A DNA stretch of 32,625 bases, taken from positions 1 through 32,625 of IMG/VR virus record IMGVR_UViG_3300031111_000027, one strand, 5' to 3'. The stretch is from a virus. Under the pieces are notes generated by a model, which worked only from the letters and a program-made list of their open reading frames with translations, did not search any database and had not been told where the DNA came from. Made by a program: the position numbers and the translations under genes. Numbering within the stretch: position 1 is the stretch's first letter; every line of letters starts with the position of its first letter. This document shows positions 9,239 to 31,921 of this stretch, piece after piece.

Positions 9239-9817
9239 ATGAGTAAAAAACAAAATAATCTCGGCGACACCATACGGCTTTCCGACCTTCGATTAAATCC
9301 TCGAAACCCTCGAACAATTAAGGACAAGAAGTTCGAAGCTCTTGTCAAATCTCTTGCCGACTTTCCGGAGACCCTCGAAAAAAGACCGATAGTAATTGAC
9401 TCGAGTAACGCGAACATGATCCTCGCGGGAAACCAGAGATATTGCGCGTTGAAAGAACTCGGATATTCTGAAATTCCAAAAGAATGGGTTTCTGATGCCT
9501 CGAATTGGTCTGAAAAGAAAAAGGAGAAATTCGTTGTCCTGGACAACGTCGATCCTTATGGGGACTGGGATCTGGATATTCTAAAAGAAGACTATGATAC
9601 CGAGGACTTGCTGGACATGGGAGTCCTGGAAGAAGTCGATTTATTTGAGGAAGACATGAAGGCCGTCGAGAAGAAAATTGTTACCGAGGAAATCCGCCCA
9701 TATAAACGAATACACTTTTTAATATCCTTCCACCCCGATGATTATGAGAAGATCCAAAACGAACTAAATACCATTGCCAGTATTCGAGACATAGAGGTCT
9801 TGCAGAGTGGAAACTAA
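9239..9817 (+). CDS. ParB-like nuclease-domain protein
   Basis: 192 residues. Residues 11-80 carry the ParB/Srx N-domain pattern: DTIRLSDLRLNPRNPR, then IVIDSSNANMILAGNQRYCALKELGY (the GNxRxxA box), then IPKEWV. The remainder is acidic and helical with a short C-terminal domain (RIHFLISFHPDDYEKI). Phage ParB-N proteins of this type usually sit beside DNA modification or terminase genes rather than in partition systems; no ParA is present here. The ATG at 9239 has only a weak AGAAG ribosome site. The next gene starts inside its last codons. Confidence 0.75.
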   Translation: MSKKQNNLGDTIRLSDLRLNPRNPRTIKDKKFEALVKSLADFPETLEKRPIVIDSSNANMILAGNQRYCALKELGYSEIPKEWVSDASNWSEKKKEKFVVLDNVDPYGDWDLDILKEDYDTEDLLDMGVLEEVDLFEEDMKAVEKKIVTEEIRPYKRIHFLISFHPDDYEKIQNELNTIASIRDIEVLQSGN

Positions 9818-11053: not shown

Positions 11054-11643
11054 TGTCAAATACTCAGGACATAAATACGATAATCCAAGTCTCGAAAGCT
11101 CTGATAAAATCCGGAGTCGAGACCAAAAAGGAACTTGCCGAGAAGCTCGGAATAGGCCAGTCAACACTTTATAAGCGATTGAGAGAGAGTAAAGAACTTC
11201 GAGAAGTGTTGAAGGACATGAGTCCTGGGAGAAACAAAATAAAAATCGATTATAAGATTGTCGATAACTTAGCCGGAATACAATGCACAGAAGAGGAGAT
11301 CGCGACTGTCCTCGGCGTATCGGTCAAGACGTTACAGCGAGATGAAGAATTTAGTCGCGTCTATAAAAGTGCGATAACGAAAGGGAAAAAGAGTCTGAGG
11401 CGTTGGCAGTTCGAAACGGCCAAGGCCGGAAACCCGACAATGCAGATTTGGCTCGGCAAAGTTTACCTCGGACAACGCGACCCGAAGGATGTTCGCGTTT
11501 CAACGCCCGAAGGGAAGAAACTCGAAATAGAAACCCATAACAAGTTTGACGATGAATTTATTGCAAAGACAGCAGCTATCCTTGCGGAATGCGGTGTCTT
11601 CTCGGCCGGAACTCCGGACGATGTTGACGCCGAGACTAAATAG
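11053..11643 (+). CDS. Terminase small subunit
   Basis: 196 residues with two N-terminal helix-turn-helix units: KKELAEKLGIGQSTLYKRLRESKEL (about 25-50) and EEEIATVLGVSVKTLQRDEEF (about 76-97). A helical assembly region and the late motif AGNPTMQIWLGKVYLGQRD follow, a common sequence in phage small terminases. It recognises the packaging site on phage DNA and recruits the large subunit. The ATG overlaps the previous TGA, and its last 23 bases overlap the large-subunit start. Confidence 0.88.
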   Translation: MSNTQDINTIIQVSKALIKSGVETKKELAEKLGIGQSTLYKRLRESKELREVLKDMSPGRNKIKIDYKIVDNLAGIQCTEEEIATVLGVSVKTLQRDEEFSRVYKSAITKGKKSLRRWQFETAKAGNPTMQIWLGKVYLGQRDPKDVRVSTPEGKKLEIETHNKFDDEFIAKTAAILAECGVFSAGTPDDVDAETK

Positions 11644-12886
11644 CTTTATTCCGCATAGCCCGACCCCGAAGCAGGCGGCGTTTCTACTTCTGCCAAACCG
11701 AGAAGCCTTTTACGGCGGCGCGGCAGGCGGAGGAAAATCGGACGCCCTATTGATGGGCGCTTTGCAATACGTGGACAATCCTAATTATGCCGCCCTAATT
11801 GTCCGGAGAAGTTATCGCGATCTCGCTCTGCCAGGGGCGATCATGGACAGAGCATATGATTGGTTAATAAACACACCGGCAAAATGGAACGGCTCGGACA
11901 AGACCTGGTTATTCCCCAGCGGTGCGAGATTGACCTTCGGATATGCCGAGGCCGAGAAGGACGTCTATACTTATCGCTCTGCCGAGTTTCAATTCATAGG
12001 GATCGACGAGGTTACAGACCTATCGGAATTTATGTATACGTATTTGATGTCTCGACTTCGCCGGTTAAAAGGAAGCAATATAGTCGTAAGAATGAGGTCG
12101 GCCTCGAACCCAGGCGGACTCGGACATGAATGGGTCAAGCGGAGGTTCGTTTCCCCAGGAAACCACGATCGACCCTTTATTCCGGCCAAACTCGACGACA
12201 ACCCCCATCTGGATAAAGAGGACTATGAGAAGTCTCTTGCCGTTCTCGACCCGCTAACAAGACAGAGACTCCGAGAAGGAAACTGGGACGTCATTCCGGA
12301 AGGCCGGAAGTTCAAGCGGACATGGTTCGAGGGGAAGATCATTCCGGAGAGCGAAGTGCCGGACAATGTCCTTTGGATTAGAACCTGGGACAGGGCGGCG
12401 ACCGAACCGAAAAAGGGGCGCGATCCGGACTATACGGTCGGAGGACTAATCGGATTTAATCTCGACGGCCAATGGTTTTTGAAAGACGTTATTCGTTTCC
12501 GAGGGACTCCGCTAACAAACAAAAAAATAATCGCAGAGACCGCCGAAAGGGACGGCTGGGAAACTCCGATATGGATCGAACAGGAAGGCGGAAGCTCAGG
12601 GAAGGACGTCGCAGACAATTATAAACGAACAGTCCTGCCAGGATACGATGTCCATTTTCTCCGGCCAACCGGAACGAAGGAACTCAGAGCAAACGTCGTT
12701 TCGAGTGCCGCCGAAGCCGGAAACTTTTATTTAGTCGAAGGGGCGTGGATCGCAGACTATTTAAACGAGATTTGTGCTTTCCCAAACCCAGCGATACACG
12801 ACGACCAAGTCGATATGACGAGTCTCGGTTTCCGCGCTCACATGGAAGTCCAACCCAGAATGATAATGCTTGAACCAGGAGCATAG
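11621..12886 (+). CDS. Terminase large subunit
   Basis: 421 residues from the ATG at 11621; an in-frame ATG at 11546 would extend further into the small-subunit gene and adds no domain. Walker A GGAAGGGKS is at about 32-40, the coupling segment VRRSYRDLALPG follows, and Walker B FIGIDEVTDL lies near residue 120-130. The C-terminal RNase H-like nuclease begins at TWDRAATE (first catalytic Asp), continues through DPDYTVGGLIGF and ends with DDQVDMTSLGF, the last acidic cluster. It is the ATP-driven packaging motor and genome-cutting enzyme. Confidence 0.95.
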   Translation: MLTPRLNSFIPHSPTPKQAAFLLLPNREAFYGGAAGGGKSDALLMGALQYVDNPNYAALIVRRSYRDLALPGAIMDRAYDWLINTPAKWNGSDKTWLFPSGARLTFGYAEAEKDVYTYRSAEFQFIGIDEVTDLSEFMYTYLMSRLRRLKGSNIVVRMRSASNPGGLGHEWVKRRFVSPGNHDRPFIPAKLDDNPHLDKEDYEKSLAVLDPLTRQRLREGNWDVIPEGRKFKRTWFEGKIIPESEVPDNVLWIRTWDRAATEPKKGRDPDYTVGGLIGFNLDGQWFLKDVIRFRGTPLTNKKIIAETAERDGWETPIWIEQEGGSSGKDVADNYKRTVLPGYDVHFLRPTGTKELRANVVSSAAEAGNFYLVEGAWIADYLNEICAFPNPAIHDDQVDMTSLGFRAHMEVQPRMIMLEPGA

Positions 12887-15515: not shown

Positions 15516-15767
15516 ATGAAACGAATACGGAAAATATGCCAAAAATGCGGGAAGTTAATAGAGGTCAAAAGACTGCCAGGCGTCGGAATAGTAGAGCTAT
15601 TCGAACTCTGCGACCAATGCCAGGCGACCGCAAAGGCCAAACCGGAAACGAAGCCGGAAACCCCTGCGGAGACAAAGGCCGAGACCTCGACCAAACCCAA
15701 AGCCAAACCGAAAAAGGGAACGGCCAAAGCCAAACCTAAAAAGGGAAGGAAGGCGAAGGATGTATAA
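15516..15767 (+). CDS. Zinc-knuckle protein with Lys/Pro/Ala-rich tail (83 aa)
   Basis: GGAGG precedes the ATG. CQKCG (8-12) and CDQCQ (32-36) form one likely zinc site. From residue 40 the chain is a histone H1-like tail of Lys, Pro, Ala and Thr with repeated KPKKG and AKAKP units. Such tails bind DNA or acidic protein surfaces. It overlaps the protease gene by 8 bases and is embedded in the head module, so it may be a minor head or DNA-binding component. Function not recognised. Confidence 0.65.
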   Translation: MKRIRKICQKCGKLIEVKRLPGVGIVELFELCDQCQATAKAKPETKPETPAETKAETSTKPKAKPKKGTAKAKPKKGRKAKDV

Positions 15768-16851
15768 AAAACTTTCGGTCAATAAAGGCAGTGTTGCCCT
15801 CGAAGCAGATTTCCCGAACAGGTCTGGACGAATGAGAGCGGTTTCGCCAAACCGTAAACTCGCGACCAAACCGGACCGGCCAGAGGGAATAGCTCAGGAG
15901 GAATATATCTCCGAGTATTTCCGGTTTTTGTCCGCGACCATTATCGAAGGACACGAACTAAACATTTCCGAGGAAGTGTTGAAAAAGGCCGTCAAGCTCT
16001 GGGAACACAAACCGGTCCAAATAGACCATCGCTTCGACGTAAACGAAAACGTCGGGTTTACCAGCAATCCGGAATGGGACGGCGAAAGCGATCCCCCTGG
16101 AATAAACGGCTGGATACACGTCTCGAAAAAAAGAGACGAAGCAAAGGGCTTCGCTATTTCGGAAGGTCTCAAAATGGGTTCGGTTGCGGCGACCTCGGTC
16201 TGGTTCTATTTCGACTGGGAGCCGTCTCATCCGGAAATGGAAGAGGATGATTTCTGGATGCTTCTCGGACAGGAGGTCGAAGGCGAACGGGTTACAATTC
16301 GAATAACCGAGATAACCGAAGTCTGGGAGCAAACGCTCTGCCTTCTCGGCGCAGATCCAAACGCTCGGAAACTGAGTGCAGACTCGAAACTAAACAAACC
16401 GGAACAACCAAAAAACGAAGAAAAGGAAACCCATAAGGAGGAACATATGAAAGAACAGATGATTGCCTTTTTGAAGGCGCTCGGCGTAGAGGTCGAGGAC
16501 AATGCTTCTCAGGAAACCCTCGAGAAGCTTGTCGCCGAAAACCTCGAAACCGTCAAAACGCTGAGGCGGAAGTCGGAAGGGTTCGACACGATGCTGGAAG
16601 CGGTCAGAGACAAAGGGAAATCCGCCCTTAACGCTCTGAAAAAGGCAGGCAAGGAAGTCAATCCGTATCTCGAAAAGATGCTGGAAAAAGACGACCCAGG
16701 CGACATTGAGTTCGCGGCGACGGAACTCGAAAAAGCTCTGAAAGACAGCCTGCCGGAAAACGGAAGAAGCTCGAAGGCGGACAAACTCGAAACCGAACCC
16801 GAGGAAACTCCGAAATCTCGGAGGGTTTCTGCCGGTGTCGAACATCTCTAA
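15760..16851 (+). CDS. Prohead protease fused to scaffold protein
   Basis: 363 residues. Residues 50-205 look like a capsid maturation protease: EHKPVQIDHRFD (candidate catalytic H90), GWIHVSKK, then ISEGLKMGSVAATSVWF (candidate S141), ending in EVWEQTLCLLGADPNA, typical of phage S14/S78-type proteases. From residue 230 a highly charged helical segment follows (ASQETLEKLVAENLETVK ... DIEFAATELEKAL), the expected form of a scaffold. A separate internal start exists (see 16447). The gene lies between portal and capsid genes, as in lambda C/Nu3. Confidence 0.82.
   Translation: MYKKLSVNKGSVALEADFPNRSGRMRAVSPNRKLATKPDRPEGIAQEEYISEYFRFLSATIIEGHELNISEEVLKKAVKLWEHKPVQIDHRFDVNENVGFTSNPEWDGESDPPGINGWIHVSKKRDEAKGFAISEGLKMGSVAATSVWFYFDWEPSHPEMEEDDFWMLLGQEVEGERVTIRITEITEVWEQTLCLLGADPNARKLSADSKLNKPEQPKNEEKETHKEEHMKEQMIAFLKALGVEVEDNASQETLEKLVAENLETVKTLRRKSEGFDTMLEAVRDKGKSALNALKKAGKEVNPYLEKMLEKDDPGDIEFAATELEKALKDSLPENGRSSKADKLETEPEETPKSRRVSAGVEHL
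16435..16441 (+). promoter_or_regulatory. Internal Shine-Dalgarno for scaffold start
   Basis: AAGGAGG inside the protease gene, 5 bases ahead of an in-frame ATG (16447). Its strength equals the best ribosome sites of the window (for example the one at 16850). A full-strength site exactly at the protease/scaffold domain border is unlikely by chance and decides the start of the internal scaffold product. Confidence 0.75.
16447..16851 (+). CDS. Internal scaffold protein (Nu3-like), in frame within the protease gene
   Basis: A 134-residue product read from the internal ATG at codon 230 of the protease gene and sharing its stop. The sequence (MKEQMIAFLKALGVEVED ... KADKLETEPEETPKS) is acidic, helical and coiled-coil-like, as scaffolds are. 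Making the scaffold from its own strong ribosome site gives many copies relative to the protease fusion, as in lambda, where Nu3 is read from inside gene C. Assignment rests on the ribosome site and domain boundary. Confidence 0.7.
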   Translation: MKEQMIAFLKALGVEVEDNASQETLEKLVAENLETVKTLRRKSEGFDTMLEAVRDKGKSALNALKKAGKEVNPYLEKMLEKDDPGDIEFAATELEKALKDSLPENGRSSKADKLETEPEETPKSRRVSAGVEHL

Positions 16852-16861
16852 GGAGGACATA

Positions 16862-19237
16862 GTGAAGCTCAAAATTATACTGGCCTTCATGGGCATAATG
16901 CTTCTCGCCTCGGCAGTGCTCGCTTTGGCCGGAGTCAATTATAACATTGTCCCTCGAACATGGTGGGGAAACGCGGCGGACTACATCGAGGAGCGAGACA
17001 CTTCGTGGTTCGACTATTCCGTAAGCGTATTCACCGGAGCGATGGGAGATACCGCCGACGCGGTTCGAGGGGATATTCGAGATACTGCCACAGTCGTTTG
17101 GACAGACAGCTCGGAAGCCCTTCGCGGAGAACTCCGAGATTCGACAAACGCATGGTGGGCGGACACCTCGGCGAATTATTATCCTCGCGGAGGACATCTT
17201 AATGTCGGAGCAAACCTTATCCAATTCCAAAGCGCCGCGCCGTTGACAAATACATATTATCTCGGCGTCGATACCGTAACAAATGTCGGCTTGACTGTCT
17301 ATGATGACCTTATGGTATCGGACAGGCTTATCGCAGATGGTATTCATGCCTTTGGACTTTGGGGATATTCGACCGGATATGCGGACAGCTTTTCCTTGAC
17401 CGACGACGGCGACACGACCCGTTTCGAGTCCGGAAATCCAATTAAAATAGGCGACGCCTCGCTTATTATTAGCACGGGCGGGGACGTAAGCATAACCGGA
17501 GATTTGACGGTCGGAGCAGGCGAGAGCGCGGTCAATATAGTTGACGCAATAGCCGCCATCGATACTACTCTGGATACGATGACAACCGGCTTGTGGCTAA
17601 GTACGGAAGGCTCTACTCAACTAAAAACACCGGAACAAATCGCCCTATCTCAAAGGATTACCGCTGAGACAGACCACGAAGAGCATTCAAGTCGTTTCGT
17701 GAACAGTAGTGCCGGGAATGCAGTAACAGCGGAAGCCTCGTCTGGCATGGGTATCTACGCAAGTTCGAGTTCAAATATAGGTGTTGCTGGTCATTCTGGT
17801 TCGAACTATGGTGGATATTTTTATTCCGGTTCGAGTTATTCTATTCGGTCTGATGGGCATACGTATTTGTTCTCAGATACGATAAGTGTTTCCGTCGTGA
17901 GGGATTCGTCTGGGATAACGATAGCCGGAGTCGACACCACAATCGAAACAGTAGAACAATTCCCTTCGGAGTTTTACACTACCGGCGGACAGACAGGCGA
18001 AGGTCAAGTTTATGCCGTCGCTTACAGCGAAGGAGATAGCCTCTGGCTATATTACTATTCCGGAGAACTCGATGCTGTAAATGATAGCTTCGTAATTTAC
18101 GTCCACGAAGAAATGTTTTATTCGGCATTTGATACTACATCAAATATAGATACAGCTTTGACGGTTATTGGAGACGCCCTATTCGCACGGGCTTATGGAA
18201 ATTATTCTGCCTGGGATAGTCTCCGCGCATCCGTCGTTTATGCCGATTCTTTCGTCGGGACTGCCACGTTCGCGGACTCGGCGGACAGGGCGGTTTATGC
18301 CGATAGTGCTCGAGGCGCGGCGGTTGCGGTCTATGCCGATTCGTCTGGTTCGACGGCAAGCTATGCCGTAGTCGCAGATACAATGTTTGCGCAGAAAGCG
18401 GAGACAGATACCATTACCGCTAAATGGTTATTCTCAAGCACAGTAGAAATAGATGATACGCTGTATCTCGACAATGGGATATTATCCTCGAACAGCGCAA
18501 GTATCGCTATCGACGCTCCAGATAATACCGGCACAACTCCTTATATTATTCTAAACGGAGCCACCGAAGCCGCCGCGCCCGGAGGGGGTGTCAACATTAT
18601 CGGTGGCAACGGAACGACAGGCGGAGGAATTAATTTACAGGCAGGCGTGGCGAGTTCCCCAGGGCTTTCTGGAAGCGTAGCTATCTCCGGTGGAAGCAAC
18701 AGCGTAAGCGGAGGTTCGGGCGGTGAGGTAACGATTCTTGGGGGAAACGCAACAGGCGCAGGCATTCAAGCAGGTAAAGTGTCTATAGATGCTGGCAATC
18801 CAAAGTCAGGAGCAACCGGTGCACGCGTGAAAATCGCTTATCAGTATGCGTCGGCTTGCTCACTCGGCTACGCAGGTATGAACTTCTATGTTTTGGCAGA
18901 TTCTTTAATCGGTTCGCCGGTTTGGGAAGGCAACATGGAAGTTACCGGAGATGTTACTGTTGTCAGCGGGCTTTCTATGTTTGGCTCGGCAATAGACTCG
19001 ACAATATGGGTGGATAACCTTGTCAATAATTATGTTGACAGTTGTTTACACGCCCTCGACATGGACACTACCGCGATGGCCGCCTTGTCGGCTTATCTCG
19101 GAGATAACTATCAAGCAAAATCGGACGTATTGACTCAACTCGCGGCGGCTTATGATTCGTTTACGGTCGCGGCGGCGGGTTCTGTCGTAGTCGGATGGAC
19201 GGTCGGATTATCGGACACGATAACCGACGTTCGGTAA
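16862..19237 (+). CDS. Large exported fibre-like, beta-rich repetitive protein
   Basis: 791 residues from GTG at 16862, chosen because AAGGAGG (16850-16856, overlapping the previous stop) lies 5 bases upstream; the upstream ATG at 16835 has none. Residues 1-23 are a textbook signal peptide: KLK, a long hydrophobic core, then a predicted cut after ALA. The mature part is low in Lys and Cys and rich in Gly, Ser, Thr and Asp. It has fibre-like phrases (GDVSITGDLTV), a Gly-Ser-Tyr block (GIYASSSSNIGVAGHSGSNYGGYF), repeated YADS units near residues 459-500, and a Gly-rich parallel-beta-helix-like stretch (NIIGGNGTTGGGINLQAG). No family recognised. It may be a surface adhesin or lysogenic-conversion protein, or an atypical receptor-binding fibre. 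It is translationally linked to the scaffold gene. Confidence 0.7.
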   Translation: MKLKIILAFMGIMLLASAVLALAGVNYNIVPRTWWGNAADYIEERDTSWFDYSVSVFTGAMGDTADAVRGDIRDTATVVWTDSSEALRGELRDSTNAWWADTSANYYPRGGHLNVGANLIQFQSAAPLTNTYYLGVDTVTNVGLTVYDDLMVSDRLIADGIHAFGLWGYSTGYADSFSLTDDGDTTRFESGNPIKIGDASLIISTGGDVSITGDLTVGAGESAVNIVDAIAAIDTTLDTMTTGLWLSTEGSTQLKTPEQIALSQRITAETDHEEHSSRFVNSSAGNAVTAEASSGMGIYASSSSNIGVAGHSGSNYGGYFYSGSSYSIRSDGHTYLFSDTISVSVVRDSSGITIAGVDTTIETVEQFPSEFYTTGGQTGEGQVYAVAYSEGDSLWLYYYSGELDAVNDSFVIYVHEEMFYSAFDTTSNIDTALTVIGDALFARAYGNYSAWDSLRASVVYADSFVGTATFADSADRAVYADSARGAAVAVYADSSGSTASYAVVADTMFAQKAETDTITAKWLFSSTVEIDDTLYLDNGILSSNSASIAIDAPDNTGTTPYIILNGATEAAAPGGGVNIIGGNGTTGGGINLQAGVASSPGLSGSVAISGGSNSVSGGSGGEVTILGGNATGAGIQAGKVSIDAGNPKSGATGARVKIAYQYASACSLGYAGMNFYVLADSLIGSPVWEGNMEVTGDVTVVSGLSMFGSAIDSTIWVDNLVNNYVDSCLHALDMDTTAMAALSAYLGDNYQAKSDVLTQLAAAYDSFTVAAAGSVVVGWTVGLSDTITDVR
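18236..18380 (+). repeat. YADS-type tandem coding repeats
   Basis: The segment encodes VYADS, TFADS, VYADS, VYADS and the decayed SYAVVADT. The DNA word TATGCCGAT recurs near 18239, 18295 and 18334 with about 40-55 base spacing. Alanine-Asp-Ser repeats of this kind form regular beta or stalk structures in bacterial fibre proteins. Such repeats can vary in number by recombination. Confidence 0.55.
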
Positions 19238-19276: not shown

Positions 19277-19705
19277 ATGTCAACACAGAGAACCAAAACT
19301 GTCGGGAATTATGATAATCTCGACACCTATCGCGTCGATCCGGCATTTAGCTGCGATTTGACCCCCAGCGATAGGAATACGGCAGGCGACGAATACAAAC
19401 CGGTAAAGTATTCCGCCGTTTCCTCGGGAAGCACATTGCCGGAGGTTGACCTGCCCAGCGAGGACGACGTCGTTATCGGAATGGTGCATAACATTTCGCC
19501 GGACGGCAAAGTCTGCCGAGTTCAGAGGTCAGGTTTTATGGCTTTCCTTTACACGGGGAGCGACCCAACAATCAACACGATGGTCAAGCTAACAGGCAGC
19601 GCAACGGCAGGGAAAGTCAAGTGCGTTACGCCCACACTCGGAGCAAAACAGTTCGAGGTCGTGGACGTGGACACCGAAAATTCCATTGTCGAAGTAGTCT
19701 GCTAA
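19277..19705 (+). CDS. Capsid decoration (head-stabilising) protein
   Basis: 142 residues directly upstream of the major capsid gene, with TAGGAGG upstream of the start. The sequence is beta-rich (VVIGMVHNISPDGKVCRVQRSGFMAFLYTGSDPTINTMVKLTGS), resembling the small decoration proteins of the gpD/DUF2190 type that sit on capsid vertices or three-fold axes. The assignment depends on size, composition and position; no catalytic motif is expected. Confidence 0.65.
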   Translation: MSTQRTKTVGNYDNLDTYRVDPAFSCDLTPSDRNTAGDEYKPVKYSAVSSGSTLPEVDLPSEDDVVIGMVHNISPDGKVCRVQRSGFMAFLYTGSDPTINTMVKLTGSATAGKVKCVTPTLGAKQFEVVDVDTENSIVEVVC

Positions 19706-19720
19706 CAAGGAGGAAAACGA

Positions 19721-20887
19721 ATGCACGGAATAGGAATATTCGACAAAAACTTTCCGAGAGTAACTTTGTCAAAAGACGAAGTGCAGGAACATCTCGGAGT
19801 TACAACTCCGCCCAGGGACGCGGAAGGAAAGATCGACCTGTCTCAGAGTCCGCTCACAAAACTTCTGGAAAAGAAGGAGCGGGAAGCCCTGGACAGACTC
19901 GGCGAAAAAGAAGGACACGCTCTAAAGATCGTAGAACACGGAGCGGAACTCGACGCCTTCCAGCGCCAGCTATTAACTCGCGGAATAGACGGGAGTTCTC
20001 CGATGGGAGCTTTACTCGCCGCCTTCTGGAGGCCGGACGAAATCGGTGTTTTCGCAGAATACGTGGAGAGGGCGGTTTTTCTGTCCGAACACACTCTCCA
20101 GCCGGACGAAGTCAAGCCCAGCGACATCATTGCCTCGACCAAAGCGGTCAAGGGATCGATGACGGCGACTGTGCCGAGACTTCAACTGGTCGGAACAACC
20201 GAACAGAAAAAGGCGAAGCGGACCGTAGCCGGTGCCGGAACAAAGACCTACGAACTCAGCGAGTCCGAGGATACCTATAAACTCGAGGAGTATGGGTTCA
20301 AACTCAAAATTCAGGACATCGCGAAGGACTCGGAAACGGTGGATACCGCGAGTCTGATAATCCAGGAACTCGCCGCCGAGAATAACCTTCGGGCAGAAGT
20401 CGAGAAAATGGTCGAACTCGCTCTGGACGCAACAGCGGGAACAGGTTTCGACGAAGCCCAGGAGTTCGAGACTTCGACGTTGACCTGGGAAGACATTCTC
20501 AAATTTTTCTACGGCGGGAAAAACGCCTCGCGTTTCCCCGATGTCATTTTCACCACAAACTATGCCGAAGGCGCGGTTATCGATATGGTGAATATCCTTA
20601 ATCTCGCGACCGTTACCGATCCGATGGCAGTCCCTGGTTCTGTTACCTCGGATGTCCTGCCAACCCTTCGAGGCCGGAAGCTCAAATTCCATTCAAGCAC
20701 AGACTTGAAGGACAAGCTTATCGGTATTCGAAAGAACTTCGGTTTCGTCAAGGCCGAGAACCGGAACGCAATGCAGAGCGAATGGGAACGTATCGCAACC
20801 GGAGGGTGGAACGTTTACCATTGGAAGACGAACAAGGCTTTCGGCCTTATCACAGACTCTGCGATTACTCGACTGGTTAAGGCATAA
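19721..20887 (+). CDS. Major capsid protein, HK97-fold
   Basis: 388 residues; AAGGAGGAAAACGA precedes the ATG. Helical N-terminal arm (LTKLLEKKEREALDRLGEKEG), then FAEYVERAVFLSEHTLQPDEVKPSDIIASTKAV. The core has TWEDILKFFYGGKNASRFPDVIFTT and a late VLPTLRGRKLKFHSSTDLKDKLIGIRKNFGFV, the usual pattern of phage capsid P-domain and A-domain. Order protease-scaffold, decoration, capsid, connector supports it. The N-terminal arm may be cut by the prohead protease. Confidence 0.82.
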   Translation: MHGIGIFDKNFPRVTLSKDEVQEHLGVTTPPRDAEGKIDLSQSPLTKLLEKKEREALDRLGEKEGHALKIVEHGAELDAFQRQLLTRGIDGSSPMGALLAAFWRPDEIGVFAEYVERAVFLSEHTLQPDEVKPSDIIASTKAVKGSMTATVPRLQLVGTTEQKKAKRTVAGAGTKTYELSESEDTYKLEEYGFKLKIQDIAKDSETVDTASLIIQELAAENNLRAEVEKMVELALDATAGTGFDEAQEFETSTLTWEDILKFFYGGKNASRFPDVIFTTNYAEGAVIDMVNILNLATVTDPMAVPGSVTSDVLPTLRGRKLKFHSSTDLKDKLIGIRKNFGFVKAENRNAMQSEWERIATGGWNVYHWKTNKAFGLITDSAITRLVKA

Positions 20888-22835: not shown

Positions 22836-23741
22836 ATGGCGAGAACAATAACAATCCAAATAATCGACGCAGATTCCGGCAATAACCTCGAAGATGTCGC
22901 CGTCGCAGTTAAGAAAAACGCGGACGACGCCGAACTGTCAAGCGGAGTTACGGACGTCAACGGCGAATATACCAGCGACGCCCAGACCGCCGCAACAGAG
23001 TATTATTTGACTGCCAGCAAGACGGGCTATATTCCGTATGTCAAGCACGGCTCAGGAGCAGGCGAAAACTTCGAGATGAAACTCCATTGGGACAGTCCGA
23101 CCGCGGACGAAACCCAGGAGATTCAAATCCTTATGATGCCGGAACGGTCGAGAACTCAAATAGTCGTTACCGAAGGCGCAGGAGCGACATCCGGCGCGGC
23201 ACAGGCGCCCGTTTCCGGAGCGACCGTATTGGTCAAAAAGACCAGCGATAACACTCTTCTCGAAACCCTAACGACCGACAGTAACGGGGTCGCTATTATG
23301 GACGAGAGTGCATATGGAGCGGTTGCCCATTATGCCGTCGTTTCGAAGACGGGTTATAATTCCCATACCGTTTACGGACCGTCGTTCGTCAAGGGCGGAA
23401 CAATCTCGGTTACGCTCGAACAGTCCGTTTCGTTCACGACCTATGAGTTCGCAGGCCGGTTGATCGACGCGGAAGGAAACCCGATTGTCGGAAAGACGTT
23501 GAAACTCGAGGTTGCCGGAATGCATAGCATAACGGACAGCGGAGTCGAATACTACGTCGCGACCGGCGAGGTTATTTCCTTGACCAGCGACGAAAACGGG
23601 AAATTCTCGAAAGACATTGTCTCAGGACTTCGCGTCAGACCGAAGACCGGTTGGACATCGTATTTCGGTTATCCGGAAAAAGTCGAGTGGACAATATCCG
23701 CCGACATCGATCTCGGAGACGGAACAGCCGGAAGCATCTAA
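22836..23741 (+). CDS. Ig/carboxypeptidase-regulatory-like tail-associated protein
   Basis: 301 residues behind a perfect long ribosome site AAGGAGGTGA (22819-22828). Three beta-sandwich-like repeats are visible, each with the CarboxypepD_reg pattern: ITIQIIDADSGNNLEDVAVAV ... GVTDVNGEYTSD; PVSGATVLVKKTSDNTLLETLTTDSNGVAI; and FAGRLIDAEGNPIVGKTLKL ... LTSDENGKFSKD. Such modules often decorate phage tails or heads and bind cell-surface sugars. The strong ribosome site implies high copy number, fitting a tube-decorating subunit or a second tube protein. The function is not proven. Confidence 0.7.
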   Translation: MARTITIQIIDADSGNNLEDVAVAVKKNADDAELSSGVTDVNGEYTSDAQTAATEYYLTASKTGYIPYVKHGSGAGENFEMKLHWDSPTADETQEIQILMMPERSRTQIVVTEGAGATSGAAQAPVSGATVLVKKTSDNTLLETLTTDSNGVAIMDESAYGAVAHYAVVSKTGYNSHTVYGPSFVKGGTISVTLEQSVSFTTYEFAGRLIDAEGNPIVGKTLKLEVAGMHSITDSGVEYYVATGEVISLTSDENGKFSKDIVSGLRVRPKTGWTSYFGYPEKVEWTISADIDLGDGTAGSI

Positions 23742-27669: not shown

Positions 27670-28259
27670 TGCCGACCTATTTGACGCCGAAGACCTGGGG
27701 CGACGGAGTAACAAACCCGCAGTTTTTAATAACTGGACCAGGCGGGACTCTGGACGTTTTGATGCCGCCCTTGCTCGAAGCCTTCGAACCAGAACTCAAC
27801 GAAGGAATTATAAAAACCGCTAAATACACCGGACGAATTGCAAAGGTATTGAGAGGGAATACCTGGGACGCGAGACTCCATTGGATATTGACCGCAGACA
27901 GACCAGTTCTCAGAGGGAACGGAATGGAAGTCTTGCCAGACCTAAACTATCTGGACGTTATCTATTATCTGTTGAACGTTGACGCGAAAATGGACACCGT
28001 CTCCGGTTGTTCGATTTACTTCTCGCCACACGGTCAGGACATGAGAGCACCAGCGGAGGCGCGGGACTTTCGAGGACATTCCGGCATTGCCGGTTGGCCG
28101 ATGGTGAAAATACGCCTCACGAACAGAGCGGACATTCTCAGGGCGCTTGCCCAGAAAACGGTTGCGAAGGACGTTACTCTGGAAATACGGACAGACGGAT
28201 ATATTGAAAGAATACCCATAAACACAGCGAAACCGCCAAAGGTTATTTACGAACTATGA
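27669..28259 (+). CDS. Tail tip protein, probably distal tail-like (196 aa)
   Basis: Starts in TAATG with the tape measure and overlaps the next gene by 4 bases. Beta-rich protein (FLITGPGGTLDVLMPPLLEAFEPE ... GNTWDARLHWILTADRPVL) with a helix (LNYLDVIYYLLNV) and a C-terminal beta region (KDVTLEIRTDGYIERIPI). Position directly after the tape measure is that of the distal tail protein. No clear family motif. Confidence 0.6.
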   Translation: MPTYLTPKTWGDGVTNPQFLITGPGGTLDVLMPPLLEAFEPELNEGIIKTAKYTGRIAKVLRGNTWDARLHWILTADRPVLRGNGMEVLPDLNYLDVIYYLLNVDAKMDTVSGCSIYFSPHGQDMRAPAEARDFRGHSGIAGWPMVKIRLTNRADILRALAQKTVAKDVTLEIRTDGYIERIPINTAKPPKVIYEL

Positions 28260-30805
28260 GTGTTTTTTATGGAATACAGGCATACCTATTGAACGACGAA
28301 GGGGAATGGGTTACTTGCTCAGAAAGCGGCTTGCCTATAAGCTCGGCAGAACCGATGAACCCAGGACATTTCGGCAGGGACTTCGCCCGAGGAAGAATAC
28401 TGTCGGACGGACCGATAAGATACGCCCTCGCGAAAGGTTTCCGGAGCGTTGAAGGATCGCCGTTGTCTCTTGTCCTAAACAATCTCGACGGTTCGTTCGG
28501 TTCTATTGACGGCAGACCGCCCTTTGATATGTTCGTTTGCAATAAGGACAAATATCTTTTGATGTTATCGGTTTGCGTTGACAGAGCGGAGATCCGGCAC
28601 AGTTCGCCGGAGTTCGTCGAGTCCGGCCCAGGTGTTTGTGTTTGGCGCGGGTTTCTCGAAAACACAAAATATTTGAAAGGCGGAGACGAAGTATCCTTCG
28701 AGTTCGGCGATTTGACATACTGGGCGGGACAATTCCAAACATCTCAGAATTACGCTCTGATTGACCGCGAGGAACTTTTTAACGCCCTCGCGGACAAACT
28801 GCCTTTTGTAGTTGGAGACGAAGCGGACCCAGACGATCATGGTGTGGACATGGATGTCGAAGAACCCCCGCCATGCTGGGACATGAGACTTTTGAACACA
28901 TTGCAGAGCATAACAAAAACCAGCGACCCCGTTGAAATAGCAAGAAAAGACGAAACGACGTTGTGGCTTAGACAGGGGAGTGTGGTTTGGGAAATTGACG
29001 TCGAGACCGGAGAGACAATACCTGGGACGGCGCTTTCGAGTGCTAACTTCGAACCGCCAGACAGTTACAACAGGGGAAGATTTATTCATGATCCTAACGT
29101 CTTATTTGGTGTCGATTATGGATTGTCTTCGCCAGTCCCATTTTATAAAGACGGGACAGAGGAAGTCCCAGACCAAACAACCCCCTTTAATAACGTTGTT
29201 TATACGTGGAAAATGTCCGCAGACGGCTCAGAAATATATATCTATTTCTCGAACTGGGACGATACTACATTCTCTTGGTCGGCTTTAATGGCGACCACCT
29301 TCGGACCGAAAGACACTTATGGACAAAGTAATTGGAGTATAGTTTTAGGACGAACTGTCGGAGGGACTCATATTCGAGTTTTGACGCCAGAGAGCAACAT
29401 GAAGGGATATTATTACTCATCCCCAGACGAAGGGGAATTTCTTTATACTCGAACAGGACAAATCCTTCATTATGTCCGAGGGCACAAAATCGAAGGCGAT
29501 GAATACCCATTTCTCGGATATCGCAGAGAAACAAAAACCTGGATTTGGACACGAATAAACGACGATTTTTCTCTTGAAACAAAACAAGCTTTTATTGTCG
29601 GAGAAGCCTCGGACAGAGCGGCCTCGGTTAGTAAACATTCTCTTTATTATCTAAACACAGCCCGATATCCGAATTGTCTCTGTTACGTTGACCGCGAGGA
29701 CGATATCGATGTCCTTGTAATCGTAAACGACAAATTCGAACTCCTCGAAAAACTATACCCAGGCGAAAGGCCGGTTTCCGCCAGCGGAGACAACACTGCG
29801 GAAAGCATTGCATCGATGACTTTGACCGGCGAGGACGATCTGCCGACCATGATCGGATATTGTCCGCAGGGACACGAAGGTTTTATCGACGACGCCCTTC
29901 ATATTGCGAGACTGAACAAGGACCGGCCAGAGACACTTTCGAGGGGAAAGTGGGAGGATGTATCTGTCGGCAAAGCTCTGAGCGAAGCAGTTAAGCCCTG
30001 GGGCGCGTGGTCGTGGATTAAGCCTAATATGAGATTAGCAATAAACAACCCAGGAGCGACACCGCCCAGGACGACTTTCGACCTTTGGCCGGAAGTATCT
30101 GATAACGACGGCGACGAAGACAGCGTCGGATATTGGGAAGAGCAATACGAAAGAATAGTTTGTAAATACGGCGCCGGTCGAGAAGTCTCGATCGGAACAA
30201 AAAAATGGAATTATAAGGACGGAAGTCTCGACCTCGAAAACGTCGTTTTTTCTCAGGATCATGCCGAGAAACTTGCCTTGCAGGAATTTCTAATTTACAA
30301 CCCATTTCGCCTCGCGGTTGACGCCCCCTTGTATCGGGGGATATTACTCGGACTATGGCAGGCTATGATTTTGCATAGGGAATGGGTTTCGACAGAAACG
30401 GAATTAAACCAATACAGTTTGACCGGTTTTGTGAAAGGTATAGAAAAACCGATAACGCTCGGAGAAGTCTGGACAGAAATAGAATTCTGGATTGTGGTCT
30501 TTTTTTATGATGTCCAATGGGGTTGGTATTATCTCGGAATGGACAACCCAGACGCACCTTGTCCGGCGTCAGGAGCGCCCTGGTGCGGAACGGTATTTCT
30601 CGGCGACGAACTCGGATACACTCCGGATATTAGCGAAATGCTTCGAGACTTATTCGACTCCATTCTCGACGCCTTGAACGATCCAGTCTGGGAAGGCGAT
30701 TTCGAGACCTGGTGGGAAATGAATTATCTAACATACTGGTCAGAGATATACGCAATAATAGAAGCCTTGCACGAAATAGGATATTTTGAGGAAGAGGAGG
30801 ACTAA
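28256..30805 (+). CDS. Large tail tip/baseplate protein with beta-propeller-like middle (849 aa)
   Basis: The N-terminal about 200 residues (GIQAYLLNDEGEWVTCSE ... FEFGDLTYWAG) look like a baseplate-hub domain. The middle, about residues 220-520, is beta-rich with recurring strand-turn units ending in aromatic residues (TTLWLRQGSVVWEIDVETGE; VVYTWKMSADGSEIYIYFSNW; FLGYRRETKTWIWTRI), suggesting a beta-propeller. The C-terminal 300 residues return to hub-like sequence (SYGKALSEAV-like segment, YNPFRLAVDAPLYRGIL). It probably combines the central tip and host-contact functions, since no separate fibre gene follows. Confidence 0.65.
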   Translation: MSVFYGIQAYLLNDEGEWVTCSESGLPISSAEPMNPGHFGRDFARGRILSDGPIRYALAKGFRSVEGSPLSLVLNNLDGSFGSIDGRPPFDMFVCNKDKYLLMLSVCVDRAEIRHSSPEFVESGPGVCVWRGFLENTKYLKGGDEVSFEFGDLTYWAGQFQTSQNYALIDREELFNALADKLPFVVGDEADPDDHGVDMDVEEPPPCWDMRLLNTLQSITKTSDPVEIARKDETTLWLRQGSVVWEIDVETGETIPGTALSSANFEPPDSYNRGRFIHDPNVLFGVDYGLSSPVPFYKDGTEEVPDQTTPFNNVVYTWKMSADGSEIYIYFSNWDDTTFSWSALMATTFGPKDTYGQSNWSIVLGRTVGGTHIRVLTPESNMKGYYYSSPDEGEFLYTRTGQILHYVRGHKIEGDEYPFLGYRRETKTWIWTRINDDFSLETKQAFIVGEASDRAASVSKHSLYYLNTARYPNCLCYVDREDDIDVLVIVNDKFELLEKLYPGERPVSASGDNTAESIASMTLTGEDDLPTMIGYCPQGHEGFIDDALHIARLNKDRPETLSRGKWEDVSVGKALSEAVKPWGAWSWIKPNMRLAINNPGATPPRTTFDLWPEVSDNDGDEDSVGYWEEQYERIVCKYGAGREVSIGTKKWNYKDGSLDLENVVFSQDHAEKLALQEFLIYNPFRLAVDAPLYRGILLGLWQAMILHREWVSTETELNQYSLTGFVKGIEKPITLGEVWTEIEFWIVVFFYDVQWGWYYLGMDNPDAPCPASGAPWCGTVFLGDELGYTPDISEMLRDLFDSILDALNDPVWEGDFETWWEMNYLTYWSEIYAIIEALHEIGYFEEEED

Positions 30806-31055: not shown

Positions 31056-31448
31056 ATGAAAAAAACAATTCTCGGACTACTCGCTCTGGTTCTAATTTTC
31101 GGAGCTGGAGTATTGTTCGCAGAGGTCGCCGGAGGAGAAATTCCCCTTCCGCCCGAACCGGAAATTCCTTCGATACTCGACTGGATCATGGAAAACCTTT
31201 GGGGTTTTATCCTCGGAGGTCTGGGCGCTTTCGGAATATCGATCGCGATATTCTGGAAGGTATCTCGACAGGTCGGTGAATTTCTACTTGCCGTCGCCGA
31301 GTTCGGCGAAGGGGGAGGAGACTGGGCAACAGTAAAAAAGGAATTCCTGGACATTATTCAGCTATTCCGAAACTCGAACCCGCTGGACACCGAGAAGGGC
31401 ATTAAAAAGGCGACTCATATCGTAAGCGGGAAAACCAAACATCGATAA
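31056..31448 (+). CDS. Two-segment membrane protein, probable holin or spanin-like component
   Basis: 130 residues; AGGAGGACGAA precedes the ATG. An N-terminal signal-like segment (KKTILGLLALVLIFGAGVLFAEV) and a second hydrophobic segment (LWGFILGGLGAFGISIAIFW) are separated by a Pro-rich loop; a soluble helical C-terminus ends in basic residues. Two membrane segments next to an M15 endolysin fit a class II-type holin, though a signal-cleaved form with a single membrane anchor is also possible. Confidence 0.6.
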   Translation: MKKTILGLLALVLIFGAGVLFAEVAGGEIPLPPEPEIPSILDWIMENLWGFILGGLGAFGISIAIFWKVSRQVGEFLLAVAEFGEGGGDWATVKKEFLDIIQLFRNSNPLDTEKGIKKATHIVSGKTKHR

Positions 31449-31456
31449 GGAGAAGC

Positions 31457-31921
31457 ATGAAAGCAAAGGGAATATTAATCCTCTGCCTTCTGGTTTTCGT
31501 ATCTTTAGGACAGACCACAGGTCTATTTCTCGAAATGGGATTAGCCCCGCCGTCTGGACAATACCGAACGGCGGTCGGCCTTGTGGATATCAATGTCCTC
31601 GGAAAGGGGACAGCATTCGGCTCAGAGTTGGCCGCCGTTGACTCGAAAAGTCTCCTGGGTTGTTACCATGAGACGAGTTACTCGAAAGAAATCTGGGCGG
31701 GTCTGGGACTCCGTGCAGGGTATAGGAAAGGACTCTGTTACATCATAACCGAGGAACGGGCAGGAGTAACGACAGGAGCGTCTTTTTCCGTATTCTGGAA
31801 TTGGGCAGAACTTCTCGCGACCTATACCGCGGTAACATACGTCAAGGACTCTGTTGTCCGCTCGGCGTCGTCGTGGCATATCGGTTTGGCCTTTAGTTTA
31901 TTGTGGAGTTCTAATCCATGA
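31457..31921 (+). CDS. Exported small protein, possible outer-membrane barrel or lysis accessory
   Basis: 154 residues; AAGGAGAAGC precedes the ATG. Residues 1-20 are a signal peptide (KAKGILILCLLVFVSLG). The mature part alternates hydrophobic and polar residues in strand-like segments (TAVGLVDINVLGKGTAFGSEL; IWAGLGLRAGYRKGLCYII; GASFSVFWNWAELLATYTAVTYV; WHIGLAFSLLW), as in small outer-membrane barrels. It has two Cys. It overlaps the endolysin gene by 4 bases, so it may assist lysis, or alter the host surface. Family not recognised. Confidence 0.6.
   Translation: MKAKGILILCLLVFVSLGQTTGLFLEMGLAPPSGQYRTAVGLVDINVLGKGTAFGSELAAVDSKSLLGCYHETSYSKEIWAGLGLRAGYRKGLCYIITEERAGVTTGASFSVFWNWAELLATYTAVTYVKDSVVRSASSWHIGLAFSLLWSSNP

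Follow-up and report, generated by a model that had tools for sequence, protein, structure and literature searches.

A temperate siphovirus of 32,625 bases, analysed over its whole length and called the window here, carries in its late head operon a gene for a large fibre-like protein with a Sec signal peptide. The gene is mobile, its body has been exchanged in modules between unrelated phages, and its conserved parts are under purifying selection. The reading that we put first, with a confidence just short of even, is that of an exported protein made with the late head genes and acting at the host envelope. The usual assumption is that tailed phages synthesise and assemble their large fibre-like proteins in the cytoplasm. 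One with a signal peptide in the head clusters of two unrelated phage groups, passed along with similar lysis genes, implies that such a fibre is exported by some phages to act on the host envelope late in infection, or else that the route of certain virion fibres is extracytoplasmic. Other phages can be screened for this combination of a signal peptide and a large fibre-like body within a structural operon.

The gene and its signal peptide

The gene set of the window comprises a repressor, a DnaB helicase, terminase, portal, protease, capsid, tape measure and tail tip genes, a lysis cassette and an M15-type endolysin. The 2.4-kb signal-bearing gene that the first-pass annotation had singled out in the head cluster proved to be a real open reading frame with a perfect Shine-Dalgarno sequence (Table 1), its GTG start codon lying at 16862-16864. 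An alternative start at 16835 (800 aa) was discarded because the perfect ribosome-binding site serves the GTG, and a chance open reading frame or sequencing artefact was ruled out by two independent homologues and by dN/dS values far below 1. A translational link to the upstream stop codon had been proposed. The ribosome-binding site does overlap the TAA, but the genes themselves stand apart, with 10 nt between TAA and GTG and no overlap of reading frames. The upstream gene, previously called scaffold, encodes an XkdF/phrog_8158 head maturation protease, of which the C-terminus is scaffold-like.

Table 1. Features of the fibre-like gene and its neighbours (window coordinates unless prefixed)
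Feature	Position	Strand	Remarks
XkdF-like head maturation protease, scaffold-like C-terminus (phrog_8158)	15760..16851	+	upstream neighbour
Shine-Dalgarno AAGGAGG	16850..16856	+	overlaps TAA (16849-16851) of protease/scaffold gene
Modular fibre-like protein, predicted Sec-exported	16862..19237	+	791 aa, GTG start; homologues L093:9573-11576, L119:9554-11728
Predicted cleavable Sec signal peptide, 23 aa, without lipobox	16862..16930	+	score 7.8
Conserved mature N-terminal domain (GVNxxxIPxTxWxNxADYIExRDTxWFD...)	16931..17125	+	common to L093, absent in L119
Shared body segment, LADSF..DDGDTTRF..NPIKIGDASLI	17321..17644	+	78% aa identity to L119, dN/dS ~0.12
Variable segment, GIYASSSSNIGVAGHSGSNYGGYF type	17645..17896	+	31% identical to L119; foreign codon usage
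Shared body segment, YADS repeats	18125..18391	+	80% aa identity to L119, dN/dS ~0.23
GGxVxI-type glycine-rich repeats	18581..18796	+	in neither homologue; foreign codon usage (z -4.3)
C-terminal domain	18959..19234	+	91.5% identity to L119 over last 248 nt; weak conservation in L093
Head decoration-like virion protein (phrog_4588)	19277..19705	+	downstream neighbour
Major capsid protein (phrog_3922)	19721..20887	+	

The predicted signal is MKLKIILAFMGIMLLASAVLALA, with the cleavage site directly before GVN. Signals were scored on a rough home-made scale (hydrophobic core, charge, A-x-A site) rather than with SignalP, and on this scale the window protein reached 7.8, compared with 7.4 for OmpA, 6.3 for MalE, 5.5 for PhoA and -1.5 for LacZ. 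The only other window proteins above 6 belong to the lysis cassette (31056-31448 and 31457-31921). Both homologues, designated L093 and L119, also carry a signal peptide (scores of 6.7 and 6.5). Because the signal layout has been kept in three of three family members although its letters have diverged, export, as the first-pass annotation had read it, is well supported, and judged from the sequences it is the best-supported step of the proposed action. Between the window protein and L093, 6 of the 23 signal residues are identical, compared with 18 of the first 28 mature residues; conservation thus begins sharply at the predicted cleavage site, the trace that a cleaved signal leaves. The protein does not have the features of a bacterial lipoprotein, its first mature residue being Gly and its first Cys lying at position 666.

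With a mean of 2.69 over 19 residues, the N-terminal segment is sufficiently hydrophobic to form a membrane helix. It might therefore, as the first-pass annotation had also considered, stay uncleaved and hold a periplasmic fibre in the inner membrane, where it would block DNA entry or the access of superinfecting phages to the envelope. We regard such an anchor as improbable, given the good A-x-A cleavage motif, the short charged n-region and the abrupt onset of conservation; moreover, the L119 segment is less hydrophobic (1.87) and better suited to a cleaved signal. An ordinary head or tail fibre assembled in the cytoplasm, with the hydrophobic N-terminus belonging to a virion fold and the likeness to a signal being accidental, would agree with the gene position and the fibre-like sequence. 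It is nevertheless very unlikely, as the complete signal layout recurs in all three homologues, two of them with unrelated mature N-termini. Furthermore, only 14 of the 820 open reading frames that reach 150 aa in related virus loci scored 6 or more, and those longer than 300 aa among them were the two homologues and an 820-aa fibre-like protein of the L119 phage.

The mature protein has 768 residues and is very acidic (27 K+R versus 88 D+E), and we saw in it no second membrane segment, recognised C-terminal anchor or outer-membrane transport signal. Its designation as a fibre is suggested by repeats and composition. It had been called repeat-rich, which holds at the protein level (YADS-type motifs and five GGxVxI-type units) but not at the DNA level, tandem repeats being absent from the gene. 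The sequence pattern is likewise fibre-like, as had been noted, but structure prediction did not confirm it, with pLDDT values of 29 for the full protein and 42 for one domain.

Homologues, exchange and selection

The window protein matched no entry in Pfam, PHROG, NCBIfam or the PDB, fibre families and solved fibre structures included, and single-protein scans of 50,697 phage records, plasmids and viral and genome contigs left it unmatched. Within these libraries, the suggestion of an undescribed system is borne out. No cellular homologue was detected in 199 genomes of a single phylum, which was reached through a TerL relative and is not necessarily that of the host. TerL-based scans, tried as a route to relatives, returned 80 or more loci, but their head genes were unrelated. 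L093 was reached through the protease and L119 through the shared body domain, giving a family of three members with the window.

The L093 copy (667 aa) occupies the same gap as in the window. From terminase to tail tip the genes of the two phages come in the same order, with 59% identity in the protease N-terminus and 50% in the portal. The L119 copy (724 aa) lies between head-morphogenesis and scaffold genes of a siphovirus with a phrog_38 terminase, an SPP1-type portal, a MuF-type head protein, Phage_scaffold and a Phage_cap_E capsid; the TerL, portal and capsid of the window (phrog_979, phrog_3753 and phrog_3922) are all unrelated to these counterparts. Both copies have good ribosome-binding sites too.

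The window and L119 genes have three DNA segments in common, with identities of 82, 85 and 91.5%. At the protein level, identity is 78% over residues 154-261, falls to 31% over 262-345, and is 53% over 346-421, 80% over 422-510, 23% over 511-700 and 86% over 700-791. In the conserved segments dN/dS is 0.12, 0.23 and 0.26, indicating purifying selection. Codon usage is phage-like at both ends of the gene and foreign in two stretches, near residues 240-345 (z -3.9) and near 600-690 (z -4.3), whereas none of 206 windows in other genes fell below z -2.3. By these measures the protein is a mosaic, parts of which have been exchanged. Apart from the fibre-like gene, the two phages share only a repressor (34%), two signal-bearing lysis-cassette proteins (56% and 47%) and the endolysin (70%), the kind of genes that go with a shared host and not with a shared particle.

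The check on related phages called for by the first-pass annotation thus revealed two homologues with modular variation, as well as relatives devoid of the gene. It is missing from all 14 relatives in which the protease is homologous and the interval could be read (L005, L095-L104 and L107-L109, L096 and L097 being near copies); there, the decoration gene directly follows the protease. Since these phages have the same order of protease, decoration and capsid genes, the head does not need it. A gene that only some of the phages sharing its neighbours possess behaves in this respect as a moron does.

Expression and site of action

In the window and L093, the fibre-like gene starts 10-16 nt after the protease gene, and this close packing within the late head operon leaves no room for a promoter of its own. 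Expression in the lysogen is therefore unlikely, except from a promoter within the protease gene. Consensus scans for promoters and terminators rose at most slightly above chance in the window region. The earlier idea of lysogenic conversion is right in that the phage is temperate, with a serine integrase and a repressor, but the lack of promoter room speaks against it. Embedding in the operon would suit a protein produced together with the capsid. A strong intrinsic terminator (-28.3 kcal/mol, z -5.8, followed by U6) precedes only the L119 copy, as would suit a moron, expressed independently. In L119, a similar hairpin followed by GTTAAAnnnCGTAG flanks the fibre gene on both sides (9500-9521 and 11750-11776) and occurs nowhere else in that record or in the window; the pair may represent recombination borders or transcription signals of the cassette.

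Under the envelope reading, the signal peptide would carry the protein through the inner membrane and be cleaved after ALA, and the soluble, acidic mature protein would end up in the periplasm or outside the cell. Its exchangeable beta-rich segments might then bind some envelope component, for example the phage's own receptor, whose occupation late in infection would keep progeny or rivals from re-adsorbing or injecting. The signals in all three homologues, the copies in unrelated phages, the sharing of the repressor and of the envelope-facing lysis genes, the purifying selection, the dispensability of the gene and the terminator ahead of the L119 copy argue for this reading. Against it stand the lack of promoter room in the window and L093, the absence of an anchor or outer-membrane transport signal and the small size of the family.

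Lambda Lom, which is exported although its gene lies among those for the virion, would provide the logic, but it is a protein of a different kind. Lom is an outer-membrane protein with a signal peptide, its gene lying between the tail spike and tail fibre genes (PMC12309495); its transcription in lysogens has been reported, yet was undetected in another study (PMC2147009). Like Lom, the window protein bears a Sec signal, present in all three homologues, and is encoded among the structural genes of a temperate siphovirus. Unlike this beta-barrel membrane protein of the tail region, it is a modular, soluble-looking protein of the head region, and it gave no Ail/Lom match in Pfam, NCBIfam or PHROG. 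PblB of streptococcal prophages has a role in adhesion (PMC4508584). PblA and PblB resemble the window protein by description, as phage-encoded fibre-like proteins acting on the bacterial surface. PblB is of tail type, and no Sec signal is known for it.

A second possibility, likewise raised in the first-pass annotation and given about one chance in four here, is a virion fibre that passes through the periplasm: exported, folded outside the cytoplasm and docked on finished particles at lysis, its N-terminal domain binding head or tail and its exchangeable body the host. Such late docking might be likened to that of decoration proteins, which are able to bind finished capsids. The fibre-like repeats suit a virion fibre, and so does the place of the gene: in two phages it lies between protease and decoration or capsid genes, in the third between those for head morphogenesis and scaffold. 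As the first-pass annotation had stated for the window, no other fibre gene follows the tail tip there, nor does one in the L093 record; on the other hand, receptor binding may fall to the tail tip protein itself (28256-30805). The mature N-terminal domain is present in the two phages whose heads are related and missing from the third, whose head is not, and the C-terminal part is exchanged, a pattern resembling that of fibres that dock on the virion by their N-terminus. With one phage per kind, however, common descent of the 5' end, with recombination elsewhere, accounts for it as well. Absence of the gene from the 14 relatives with the same head module also speaks against a virion fibre. No tailed-phage precedent with a Sec signal was found in the literature searched, and in a survey of phage DGR target proteins signal peptides were lacking (PMC6199706). 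Slightly less probable still is a fuller form of the proposal, in which a Sec-exported virion fibre would mature in the periplasm and be fitted only at lysis, its bodies being traded between phages that use the same envelope but have different heads.

Comparison with known virion fibres is similarly divided. The window gene adjoins the major capsid genes, as do those of capsid head fibres. Long, fibre-like and dispensable-looking products of genes next to the capsid genes are also known in phi29 (gp8.5), T4 (Hoc) and SPP1 (gp12). Unlike these, which are not known to carry a Sec signal, the window protein is signal-bearing, and it matches no solved structure. With modular tail fibres it has in common a mosaic body, segments exchanged between unrelated phages and purifying selection outside the variable region, but its signal peptide, which tail fibres are not known to carry, its location in the head cluster and the absence of a fibre family match set it apart.

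Other features of the two phages

The 820-aa signal-bearing protein of the L119 phage (L121:3338-5800, minus strand) is D/T-rich and encoded directly after the tail genes, the usual position of a tail fibre; its sequence is unrelated to that of the window protein. In the tail region of the window, a 301-aa protein (22836-23741) is made of carboxypeptidase-regulatory/Ig-like domains and is 55% identical in L093.

Between the holin-like gene and the endolysin of the window lies a gene for a small, signal-bearing, outer-membrane-like protein of 154 aa (31457-31921), without a family match; the unrelated L119 phage has a copy of 47% identity in the corresponding position. It is possibly an outer-membrane lysis factor replacing spanins, and its outer-membrane-like character hints at a host with two membranes.

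The serine integrase frame reads from 1654 off the left end of the record (1-1654). A complete tRNA-Gln(CTG) gene at 51-124 overlaps its 3' end, which suggests an attachment site at the tRNA, a location uncommon among large serine integrases; the right end of the window record showed no repeat to match.

The large terminase (11546-12886) has the archaeal Methanothermobacter phages psiM2 and psiM100 as its closest sequenced relatives (47%), and the portal and protease are closest to those of human gut phages, indicating a mosaic packaging module.
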